A stretch of 42,987 nt of DNA, from contig JAPPGM010000150.1 in NCBI GenBank assembly GCA_028874995.1, positions 1 through 42,987 on the forward strand, written 5' to 3'. A model generated the notes under the pieces. That model was given only the letters and a program-made list of their open reading frames with translations, searched no databases and had not been told where the DNA came from. Source of the stretch: Gemmatimonadota bacterium. Its GTDB lineage: Bacteria > Gemmatimonadota > Gemmatimonadetes > Longimicrobiales > Gaopeijiaceae. Below are positions 18,118 to 22,993 of the stretch, one piece after another. The translations under genes were made by a program, and so were the position numbers. Every line of letters begins with the position of its first letter. Position 1 is the first letter of the stretch.

Positions 18118-18586
18118 GCGCGACTCTCCGGGCGTGCGGGAACCGGTGCGTGGGGGCTGCGCCGGTTTCGCCCGAACTGCTCAAGATGTAATGACAACAT
18201 TACATTTTGTCATGTATGGTATACCAATGATCCCTGGACCGTGGAGTGATGCTATAGCCTGCGGATTGTAGCGGAGAGTCCGCCGGAAAGCCGGAAGGGA
18301 AGGTACCGTGGGTACTTCCGGCAGGTCAACGGCGAGGTGTGCTGGCCGAGTGGCACGCCCGGTTGCCGAAGGGCATGTTTCCGGAAACCGCCCCCGTTGC
18401 GTAAAGTGGCCGGCCGCGTGAGATTGCGTGCGATTCCGGACTGTCCGACAGCCGGAAGCCCCCTCCCGAACCGGACCCTTCCCGTGCCGTGCTCCGCCAC
18501 AGTCGTGAAGCGGCGGAGGCGACCGCGAATCGCGTCGCCGAAGCGGGTTCGGGCGCGCCCGCCAACCCAGGAATCCGAAAGAGCCG
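18118..18586. other. Non-coding gap between apbC and pruA, with possible gene remnant
   Basis: These 469 bases lie between divergent genes. They hold the AT-rich element at 18185-18225 and then ordinary GC-rich sequence. At 18301-18360 the plus strand can be read as YFRQVNGEVCWPSGT, which weakly recalls the C-terminal part of DUF2442-type small proteins. It then needs a frame change to continue (ARLPKGMFPETAPVA and a stop at about 18402). No intact start or ribosome-binding site was found. I regard it as a possible remnant and not a gene. Confidence 0.4.
18185..18225 (+). repeat. AT-rich palindromic element, copy 1
   Basis: The 41-base element begins GATGTAATG and ends GTATACC. It contains the exact inverted repeat TGTAATG-N4-CATTACA and a second, near-exact one, CATTACA-N3-TGTCATG. 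It is very similar to the minus strand of 22953-22993 and to 30435-30471. It points toward pruA. It may be an operator/promoter region or a small repeat; its AT content is far above its surroundings. Confidence 0.75.
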
Positions 18587-20228: not shown

Positions 20229-21422
20229 TCAGACGGCGGCGCCCAACGCCGCGGCGACCGCCCCCGAGAAATCCGCCTTGAGGTCCTCGAGATCCTCGAG
20301 GCCGACCGAGATTCGCACGAAGCCGTCGCGGATTCCGAGCGTGTTCCTTTCTGCAGGGGACAGATCCACGTGGGAGGTATGGCGTGGCTGGGAGACGAGG
20401 GTTTCGACGCCTCCCAGCGACGGGGCCGCGGCCGCCAGCGCCAGGTTGTTGCAGAAGCGGTCCGCGGCTTCTCCCCCTCCGTCGAGCACGATTGACAGCA
20501 TTCCGCCGTAGCCATCGAGCATTCGGGCGGCACATTCGTGATCGGGGTGGCTCGTGAGACCCGGGTGGATCACCTGGCGGACGCCCTCGATCGACATGAA
20601 CCACCTCGCCAGGGCCAGCGCCGTCCGGTTGTGCCGCTCCATCCTGGCGGGAAGGGTGCGCATGCCGCGTTCGAGGAGCCACGCGGCCTGCGGGTCGATG
20701 GACCCGCCGTACAGTTTCATCACCTTCGTGACGGCGCGGATGAGTTCGGCGCTCCCCGCAACCGCTCCCGCAATCAGGTCGGAATGGCCCCCCAGGTACT
20801 TGGTGGCCGAGTGGATCACCGCATCGACGCCATGCTCGGCCGCGCGGATGTTGACCGGGGTCGCGAAGGTCATGTCGGCGGCGAGGATGGCGCCGGCTGA
20901 GCGAGCGGCTTGGCGGGCCGGGCCGATATCGAAGACGCGCAGGGTGGGGTTGGTGGGGAGTTCGATGAGCACGACCCGCGTGGCGGGCGTCGTGGCGGCG
21001 CGCCAGGCGGTTGGGTCGCCGGGGTCCACGAATGTGGTGGTGATCCCGCGCCTGGGCAGCTCGTGCGAGAGCAGCGCGTGGGTGGCGCCGTAGAGGTGGC
21101 GGCTGGCCACGATGTGGTCGCCCGCGCGGGTGGTCGCCAGCAGGGTCATGGAGATCGCGGCCATGCCGCTGGCCAGCGCCAGCGCCGACTCCGTGCCCTC
21201 CAGCGCGGCGATCTTGGCGGCGACGGAGCGCTGGTTCGGGTTGTTGCCGTACCGGCTGTAGAGCAGGTCGATGCCGTCGCCGGGGCCGGACCAGTGGAAG
21301 GTGGAACTCCGCACGATCGGAGCCACGACCGGTCCTCCCGGCCGCGCCGGGGGCTGTCCGGCGTGGACCGCGTGGGTGGCCAGGCCGCGTTTGCCGTTCA
21401 GATTCGGGTCAGTGTCCATCAT
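20229..21422 (-). CDS. Cys/Met-metabolism PLP-dependent enzyme (cystathionine gamma-synthase/lyase family)
   Basis: A 397-residue fold-type I PLP enzyme of the trans-sulfuration family. The PLP lysine is K208 in SATKYLGGHSD. YSRYGNNPNQ (~55-64), ALASGMAAI (~82-90) and LPTNPTLRV are present. The PLP-ring aspartate is D183, although the usual DNTFA(S/T)P reads ADMTFATP. The family includes cystathionine gamma-synthase, gamma-lyase, beta-lyase and methionine gamma-lyase; the sequence alone does not decide which. Two adjacent ATGs (21422 and 21419) follow GGAG. The start overlaps the STAS-like gene by 14 bases, so they are probably translated together. Confidence 0.9.
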   Translation of the reverse strand: MMDTDPNLNGKRGLATHAVHAGQPPARPGGPVVAPIVRSSTFHWSGPGDGIDLLYSRYGNNPNQRSVAAKIAALEGTESALALASGMAAISMTLLATTRAGDHIVASRHLYGATHALLSHELPRRGITTTFVDPGDPTAWRAATTPATRVVLIELPTNPTLRVFDIGPARQAARSAGAILAADMTFATPVNIRAAEHGVDAVIHSATKYLGGHSDLIAGAVAGSAELIRAVTKVMKLYGGSIDPQAAWLLERGMRTLPARMERHNRTALALARWFMSIEGVRQVIHPGLTSHPDHECAARMLDGYGGMLSIVLDGGGEAADRFCNNLALAAAAPSLGGVETLVSQPRHTSHVDLSPAERNTLGIRDGFVRISVGLEDLEDLKADFSGAVAAALGAAV

Positions 21423-22041
21423 CTTCTCCGTGGCGTTTCAATCGGGTTTCGTCAGGCAGGTGGCGGGCGAGCGCGCTCAGTGAACACGCGGTTCCCCCGG
21501 AATCGCGCAAGATCAGCCGCCGCTCGGAGAGCCGCAGCAGGAGCGCCTCGCCGCGGGCACCCAGAAGCGGCGCCGACGCGCTCGCCCCGATCCGCTCTCT
21601 CCGCTCCAGAGTGGACCAGGCGGCACGCTCCTCCGTGGTCGCGGGCCCCAGGAGGCTGCAACCGCCCTCTCCGAAGTCGCAGACCGCAGCGAGACCGTGC
21701 CTGGCGAGAACCTCGTCCACCGCGTGGCCATGCACCTCCCTGACCGCGCGGAAGAGGAAGAAGATGTCGCCGGGACGCTCGGCCGGAAGGTACCGGAGCA
21801 GCAGCTTGGCGACGACCTCGTCGGCGCAGCTGAAGTCCAGAACGCCGACCCCCGTGAGGTCGATCACCGACACGGACAGGTGTCCGGCCCCGGAGAGCTC
21901 GCCCTCGATCGCTTCTCGAACCGCCCTGCCGGTCGGGCGGGTCACGAGGTTGGCGTTCGGCGACGCCGGGAGGTCCCTCATGAGCGCCCCGACATCGATG
22001 GCGAATCCGTTGCATCCGCGTTGCCGCAGGCGATCAGTCAC
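21409..22041 (-). CDS. STAS-like (DUF4325-type) protein, putative partner-switch component
   Basis: A 210-residue protein. The middle part (VSVIDLTGVGVLDFSCADEVVAKLLLRYL, about residues 57-85 from the GTG) has the strand-loop-helix of STAS and STAS-like DUF4325 domains. A conserved Ser sits in the LDFSCADE loop, where anti-anti-sigma factors are phosphorylated. The remaining ~120 residues (to TRLKRHGEDDGH) have no family I recognise. The GTG at 22041 overlaps the stop of the STAS-HATPase gene by eight bases. The first ATG would be 21981. Gene coupling to a HATPase protein suggests the two interact; this is inference. Confidence 0.6.
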   Translation of the reverse strand: MTDRLRQRGCNGFAIDVGALMRDLPASPNANLVTRPTGRAVREAIEGELSGAGHLSVSVIDLTGVGVLDFSCADEVVAKLLLRYLPAERPGDIFFLFRAVREVHGHAVDEVLARHGLAAVCDFGEGGCSLLGPATTEERAAWSTLERRERIGASASAPLLGARGEALLLRLSERRLILRDSGGTACSLSALARHLPDETRLKRHGEDDGH

Positions 22042-22921
22042 CGGAGTTCTCGGGCAGGATGATGTTGATCTGGGCGCCCGGAAAGTGGCGGAGTCCCTCC
22101 TGGAGCGGAGGATGGCGGCTCCACGCGGGCGTGTCGGCAATGCGGGCGGTCCCGCTCCGTATCGAGAGCAGGCCGTTCCAGCGGCCGACCTGCTTGCGGA
22201 TCTGCTGGATTCCCTGCCCCCGGCCGATATCGGGGAACCGCGTAAGTCCAAGGAGGAACGCGGCTTCGAGAGCCGTCACATCGCCCCAGCGGTCCCCGAA
22301 GCGTTTGGCGTGCTCGTCCGCGAGCGACGCGCGAAACCCCTGGCCCAGATCCGACACGGCGATCACCGCCACGTGTCGTCCGAGCCGCCGGGTCCAGTTG
22401 TAGGATTGGGCCGCGACCCAGCCGGGGCCTTCCGCATGTTCGACGATGTTCTGGCACACCTCGGAGAGGATGACCGAGAACTGGACCACCGCGGCGGGGG
22501 GATACCGCAGCGTGTGGGACAGGATCGCCCCCGCCCGCGATTGTACCGTGTCGACGACCTCGTGGACGTCGGAGTTGGTGGTGATCGGGGTGATTTCGAG
22601 GAGCACATCGGAGGTGCGGGTGCGGCGGCGGCGGACGCGGCGCGGCGGCGGCTGGAAGATCTCCGCCGCGGCACGCGAGAAACCCATCCGCTCGAGGTAT
22701 CCGGCGACCTCCGTGTCAACGGGCAGGGAGATTCGCGGCCTTGCCCCGCCCCGGCCGGCCACCTTTCCCGCGCCCAGGAGGGCGAGCATCCCGTTGGGGT
22801 CGATCCAGCGCAACCGCCGTGCGTCAAAGAGGACGGGGTCCGTCTCGACGGCCCCGATACGGGCATGCAGCGTCTCGATGTTCCGATCGTCGAGCGAAGA
22901 GGGGATTTCGATCACGCGCAT
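22034..22921 (-). CDS. STAS-HATPase fusion protein (anti-sigma-factor-type ATPase)
   Basis: A 295-residue protein. Residues ~1-90 look like a STAS domain (LFDARRLRWIDPNGMLALLGAGK, FSRAAAEIF). After an Arg-rich linker (RRVRRRRTRT), residues ~110-290 form a GHKL/HATPase domain. The N-box helix ILSEVCQNIVEHAEG is at 151-165 (E154, N158, H162). The G1 box is VSDLGQGF at 189-196 and the lid glycines GRGQGI near 235. RsbW/SpoIIAB-type kinases have the same ATP site, but STAS and kinase are normally separate proteins. The ATG at 22921 has no Shine-Dalgarno sequence. The AT-rich element at 22953-22993 ends 31 bases before it. Confidence 0.75.
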   Translation of the reverse strand: MRVIEIPSSLDDRNIETLHARIGAVETDPVLFDARRLRWIDPNGMLALLGAGKVAGRGGARPRISLPVDTEVAGYLERMGFSRAAAEIFQPPPRRVRRRRTRTSDVLLEITPITTNSDVHEVVDTVQSRAGAILSHTLRYPPAAVVQFSVILSEVCQNIVEHAEGPGWVAAQSYNWTRRLGRHVAVIAVSDLGQGFRASLADEHAKRFGDRWGDVTALEAAFLLGLTRFPDIGRGQGIQQIRKQVGRWNGLLSIRSGTARIADTPAWSRHPPLQEGLRHFPGAQINIILPENSGD

Positions 22922-22952
22922 GTCGGAAACCCATCGATGACCTGCGTACAAT

Positions 22953-22993
22953 GTATACTGTACATGACATAATGTAATGTCTTCATTACATCG
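22953..22993 (-). repeat. AT-rich palindromic element, copy 2 (inverted relative to copy 1)
   Basis: On the minus strand it begins CGATGTAATG and ends GTATAC. It contains TGTAATG-N4-CATTACA exactly and CATTACA-N3-TGTCATG, as in 18185-18225. It covers the stop codon of the PfkB kinase gene and lies 31 bases upstream of the STAS-HATPase ATG, toward which it points. TATACA at its end could act as a -10 box. Confidence 0.75.

Follow-up and report, generated by a model that had tools for sequence, protein, structure and literature searches.

In this study, we analysed a 42,987-nucleotide (nt) contig of a Gemmatimonadota bacterium (JAPPGM010000150.1 of assembly GCA_028874995.1, hereafter the window, meaning the stretch at its full length) and characterised a pair of overlapping genes on its reverse strand, here termed A and B. 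Gene A encodes a STAS domain joined to a kinase domain of the RsbW/SpoIIAB type, and gene B a STAS-like, DUF4325-related domain followed by a predicted winged helix. It is strongly supported that A and B form a unit which co-occurs across phyla, and the pair is probably a widespread regulatory switch that has so far gone unstudied. While fold assignments, conservation, gene pairing and co-occurrence are established by computation, we propose with moderate confidence that the two proteins constitute a partner-switch-like pair, in which A would hold or release B and the output would run through the winged helix of B, not through a sigma factor.

Conservation of the gene pair

Gene A (22034-22921, 295 amino acids, ATG start) overlaps gene B (21409-22041, 210 amino acids, GTG start) by 8 nt, and B in turn overlaps by 14 nt a third gene on the same strand, C (20229-21422, 397 amino acids, ATG start), which encodes a pyridoxal phosphate (PLP) enzyme of cysteine/methionine metabolism. 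The three overlapping genes had been described in an original prediction made from the DNA sequence, and both the genes and the lengths of their overlaps proved to be real. Of 99 genomes belonging to the same order as the window's genome, 94 contain A and 95 contain B, nearly always as one strong match each, and the two are therefore not chance reading frames. From a separate collection, 64 gemmatimonadote loci were compared, and the gene order A-B is kept among these relatives, with B directly following A in 62 of the 64 and the two reading frames overlapping in 51, mostly by 4 or 8 nt.

The pairing extends beyond the phylum: of 16 A-carrying genomes there, 14 also have B. The 100 genomes of a sample centred on Nitrospirota (the phylum of a Nitrospirae genome) include 19 with A, 18 with B and 16 with both (Fisher p 1e-13, uncorrected for kinship). 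In 11 of these 16, the two genes share a strand and B is found within about 6 kb downstream of A, sometimes adjacent to it, in front of genes unlike the gemmatimonadote neighbours, such as pgpA-cinA-thpR-recA (gene names read from the sequence). Among another 118 genomes, sampled from the phylum of a 'Deltaproteobacteria' genome, all five carriers of A also contain B, and two genomes have B alone. A pair that is present in single copy in about 95% of the order's genomes and occurs in Nitrospirota, anammox-type Planctomycetota and 'Deltaproteobacteria' as well is likely to control a basic function in groups whose genetics is little developed.

Three contigs titled Gammaproteobacteria (L062, L063 and L064) carry the gemmatimonadote A-B pair at 60% identity, and in L062 and L064 lepA and kinase genes are likewise found upstream of it; the titles or the binning of the three contigs are probably wrong. 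In two Nitrospirae-type genomes (L109, 6830-7228 and 8608-9069; L114, 6699-7283 and 12130-12591) A is followed by a gene for a Cys-rich protein, and a His_Phos_1 gene, which resembles phosphohistidine phosphatases, is located downstream of B.

Domain architecture of A and B

Since the Pfam matches of A itself, all of them to HATPase families, are sub-threshold and B itself has none at all (DUF4325 and helix-turn-helix (HTH) families included), both proteins were assigned via their relatives and via structural models. For A, an AlphaFold2 model was built on an alignment of 38 relatives and reached a mean predicted local distance difference test score (pLDDT) of 89. Residues 1-94 (22640-22921) match the STAS protein TM1442 over 88 residues (Z 10.4), Foldseek places this half on RsbV in an RsbV/RsbW entry (probability 1.00), and a Pfam match to STAS_2 is found in 11 of the 38 relatives. 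Residues 103-294 (22040-22615) match SpoIIAB over 135 residues (Z 14.4, root-mean-square deviation 2.6) and RsbW with Z 11.6, with histidine kinases clearly lower at Z about 9. The N box (E154-V-C-Q-N158..H162, at about 22436-22462), the G1 box (D191-L-G-Q-G195, at about 22337-22351) and the G2 box (G233-R-G-Q-G237, at about 22211-22225) can all be located within this domain. E154, N158, H162, D191, G193, G195, G233, G235 and G237 are invariant across the 38 relatives, and the N box in the form E..QN..EH is retained in 105 of 107 distinct sequences. The sequence is divergent, and HATPase_c_2 scores 20.7 bits, below its curated cut-off of 27.4 bits; the kinship of A to RsbW and SpoIIAB is consequently based on fold and boxes. 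As modelled, A is thus a STAS domain combined with a GHKL kinase of the RsbW/SpoIIAB type, with putative serine kinase activity. The original prediction had read A as a fusion of a STAS domain, placed in residues 1-90, with a HATPase that has intact N and G boxes. Both halves are now backed by structure prediction, with a STAS fold across that N-terminal stretch, and the boxes are essentially invariant.

The model of B (mean pLDDT 88.5) suggests two domains. The best structural matches of B are STAS proteins, namely an RsbR-type protein of the Listeria stressosome (Z 8.0) and RsbS (Z 7.6). The STAS-like domain covers residues about 9-131 (21649-22017), and DUF4325 (PF14213) is matched by relatives of B, in one case above the curated cut-off (26.8 vs 23 bits) and in others just below it. 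A profile-profile comparison between the STAS domains of A and B gave no significant match. The conserved signature of B consists of LVTRPTG..VR..IE, with the LVTRPTG motif at 21928-21948, followed by D-[FY]-S-C-A-D-E, in the window D69-F70-S71-C72-A73-D74-E75. Ser71 (21829-21831) is near-invariant: almost all of the 108 distinct sequences compared have it. C-terminal to the STAS-like domain, a winged helix is predicted at residues about 136-187 (21481-21636), where the model shows at high pLDDT helices at 136-148, 153-160 and 164-173 and strands at 177-179 and 185-187. Several relatives have matches to HTH_24 or MarR_2 in Pfam, all below cut-off, and a profile comparison of the B C-terminus with the PDB returned weak matches to winged-helix chains. 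We therefore describe B as a DUF4325-like STAS domain with a winged helix predicted at its C-terminal end; the original prediction had overlooked the latter.

Proposed mechanism and competing readings

With regard to the physical binding of A and B, kinase activity, DNA binding, the direction of control and its targets, we infer a scheme in which the two proteins would form a regulatory module resembling a partner switch, each contributing one half of it. A would be a GHKL protein kinase of the RsbW/SpoIIAB type, or an ATP-dependent binding protein, equipped with its own regulatory STAS domain, and the STAS-like domain of B would dock onto its kinase domain. The nucleotide state, together with whatever the STAS domain of A senses or binds, would decide whether B is held or released. 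Held B might be phosphorylated by A, most plausibly at Ser71, while freed B would act via its winged helix, with DNA as the most likely target. This predicted domain would allow B to produce an output directly, with no need for a sigma factor. That a STAS-fused RsbW-type kinase directly controls a STAS-winged-helix transcription factor, as a core class of partner switch shared across phyla and operating without sigma factor or canonical phosphoserine, is a more tentative proposal.

Several observations weigh against this scheme. In the STAS domain of A, Pro42 occupies the position where a phosphoserine is usual. The surrounding motif reads D-P-x-G or S-P-x-G nearly throughout, and the canonical phosphosite, one residue after the Asp (D+1), is Pro in every sequence with a readable motif. 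In B, the D+1 site is Phe, Tyr or Leu, in a register that relies on the model and on a profile alignment below significance, and one relative even has Ala at the position of Ser71 (DYACADE, L094). With Z values of about 8, B has no more than moderate structural matches, though the top ones are consistently STAS, and its winged helix, which lacks a Pfam match in the protein itself, rests on the model and on relatives. For SypA of Vibrio fischeri, Ser56 has been reported as the phosphorylated residue, assisted by the adjacent Ser57 (PMC10120452). As the SypA register puts the phosphosite at D+1 and Ser71 at D+2, the canonical acceptor position of B is the Phe/Tyr. The second STAS-like protein with a Ser in its loop, as named by the original prediction, thus exists, with a STAS-like fold and a conserved serine; however, this serine lies one residue past the canonical phosphosite, and its phosphorylation is less certain than was implied. 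We accordingly did not accept B as an ordinary phosphoserine STAS protein. With Pro (A) and Phe/Tyr (B) at the D+1 site, a standard switch by serine phosphorylation is not assured, and without a canonical acceptor in either STAS domain, either Ser71 substitutes for it or the switch is governed solely by nucleotide state and binding. Should B be the direct output, the missing phosphosites would turn the chemistry of the switch into a testable question.

The kinase fold of A is closest to SpoIIAB and RsbW, both of which are anti-sigma factors, and the genome encodes two SpoIIE-type/PP2C phosphatases outside the window (contigs C154 and C165), which are candidate antagonists of kinase A. Both facts would fit a classical sigma switch with A as anti-sigma kinase, a sigma factor encoded elsewhere and B as anti-anti-sigma factor whose winged helix is a structural add-on. 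We nevertheless regard such a switch as unlikely, because the canonical phosphosite is missing from both STAS domains, B is predicted to contain its own output domain and, as the original prediction had noted for the window, no sigma factor or PP2C gene is seen among the immediate neighbours. The same holds for the other A-B neighbourhoods examined, where neither gene type is adjacent, a sigma partner elsewhere in the genome not having been searched for. The winged helix of B could instead be a protein-protein module, so that the pair would regulate an enzyme, the ribosome or a membrane complex and not transcription, comparable to SypE-SypA. The poor conservation of the C-terminal sequence of B among its relatives and the lack of a common target gene near the pair across phyla speak for this reading, but the matches found in relatives of B are to DNA-binding winged helices, and we consider it a minority option.

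Partner switching between A and B, as preferred here, makes no use of gene C, to which the original prediction had tied the system as a switch for sulfur amino-acid metabolism. The product of C matches Cys_Met_Meta_PP in Pfam (E 2.6e-116), and its best NCBIfam matches, both below cut-off, are methionine gamma-lyase and cystathionine gamma-synthase. In Gemmatimonadota the genes stand in a syntenic block lepA - ROK kinase - PfkB kinase - A - B - C. The 14-nt overlap of B and C and the retention of this order would argue for a dedicated link: by automatic count, 45 of the 61 gemmatimonadote loci that leave room for C have it after B, and correction of two frameshifted loci raises this to 47. However, several lineages have lost C from the site and kept A-B, PfkB (49 of 54 loci) and LepA (38 of 41) upstream of A are at least as conserved, and at the 16 loci from other phyla neither C nor PfkB, ROK or LepA is present near A. 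The dedicated sulfur link is therefore not supported, and we judge it very improbable. C was rejected as a defining part of the module; it is probably a syntenic neighbour, which in this genome is probably co-transcribed with A and B.

Upstream of A, on the same strand, lies a 41-bp element resembling a promoter or operator (22951-22991), and a second copy is found on the forward strand between an Mrp-type gene and an ALDH gene (18186-18226). Its pattern is an asymmetric palindrome, ATGTAATG-NNN-ACATTACATT-N-TGTCATGTA-N-AGTATACAT, which occurs in 25-29 copies in the genome, while a reversed control pattern gave 0; among the 99 order genomes it is present in 9, all from one genus. About half of the copies whose flanks were compared (L164-L192) share 20 bp more upstream, of the gcttcgctcacctgttcaca type, and several are followed downstream by cttcgctctgcgttgctcctcggg sequence, as in a repeat family. 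The element looks like either a promoter/operator or an expanded intergenic repeat. It was rejected as a conserved autoregulatory site of B, being located upstream of A in only a few members of one genus. A tie to A-B was likewise rejected in view of its 25-29 genomic copies and its absence from other genera in which both genes occur. BlaI-type repressors were considered as its reader; the genome has 12, most of them with no close element beside them, and one copy shares its locus with a BlaI gene (L213).

Comparison with known systems

There is precedent both for an RsbW-like kinase fused to a STAS domain and for separate kinase and STAS proteins of which the latter is the output, and a STAS-winged-helix partner was not found reported in the open-licence literature. 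That literature held nothing on DUF4325 together with a kinase, and no report combining partner-switching, STAS and winged helix. The view of the original prediction that kinase and STAS domain are always separate proteins in known systems does not hold, since Rv1364c of M. tuberculosis unites PAS, PP2C, kinase and STAS domains in one protein, the STAS domain being phosphorylated on Ser600 (PMC10950880). Rv1364c thus shares with A the presence of kinase and STAS in one polypeptide, but it differs in its domain order, its additional phosphatase and PAS domains and its phosphorylated STAS.

The SypE-SypA pair consists of an RsbW-like kinase and a STAS partner on the downstream, or output, side (PMC10120452), and it acts below transcription. 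This arrangement resembles A-B, whereas SypE additionally has REC and PP2C domains and SypA is a single STAS domain with the canonical Ser56. B shares with DUF4325 the matches of its relatives, of which one exceeds the curated cut-off, and differs from it by the added C-terminal winged helix, the B of the window itself having no score against the family. A further parallel is provided by the partner switches RsbW-RsbV and SpoIIAB-SpoIIAA, with which A shares the kinase fold as well as the N and G boxes, and B the STAS-like domain of the partner. In contrast to these systems, A carries an extra fused STAS domain, B carries a winged helix, neither STAS domain has the canonical Ser/Thr and no sigma factor is encoded nearby. 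If B is indeed the direct output, partner switching would here reach transcription without a sigma factor.
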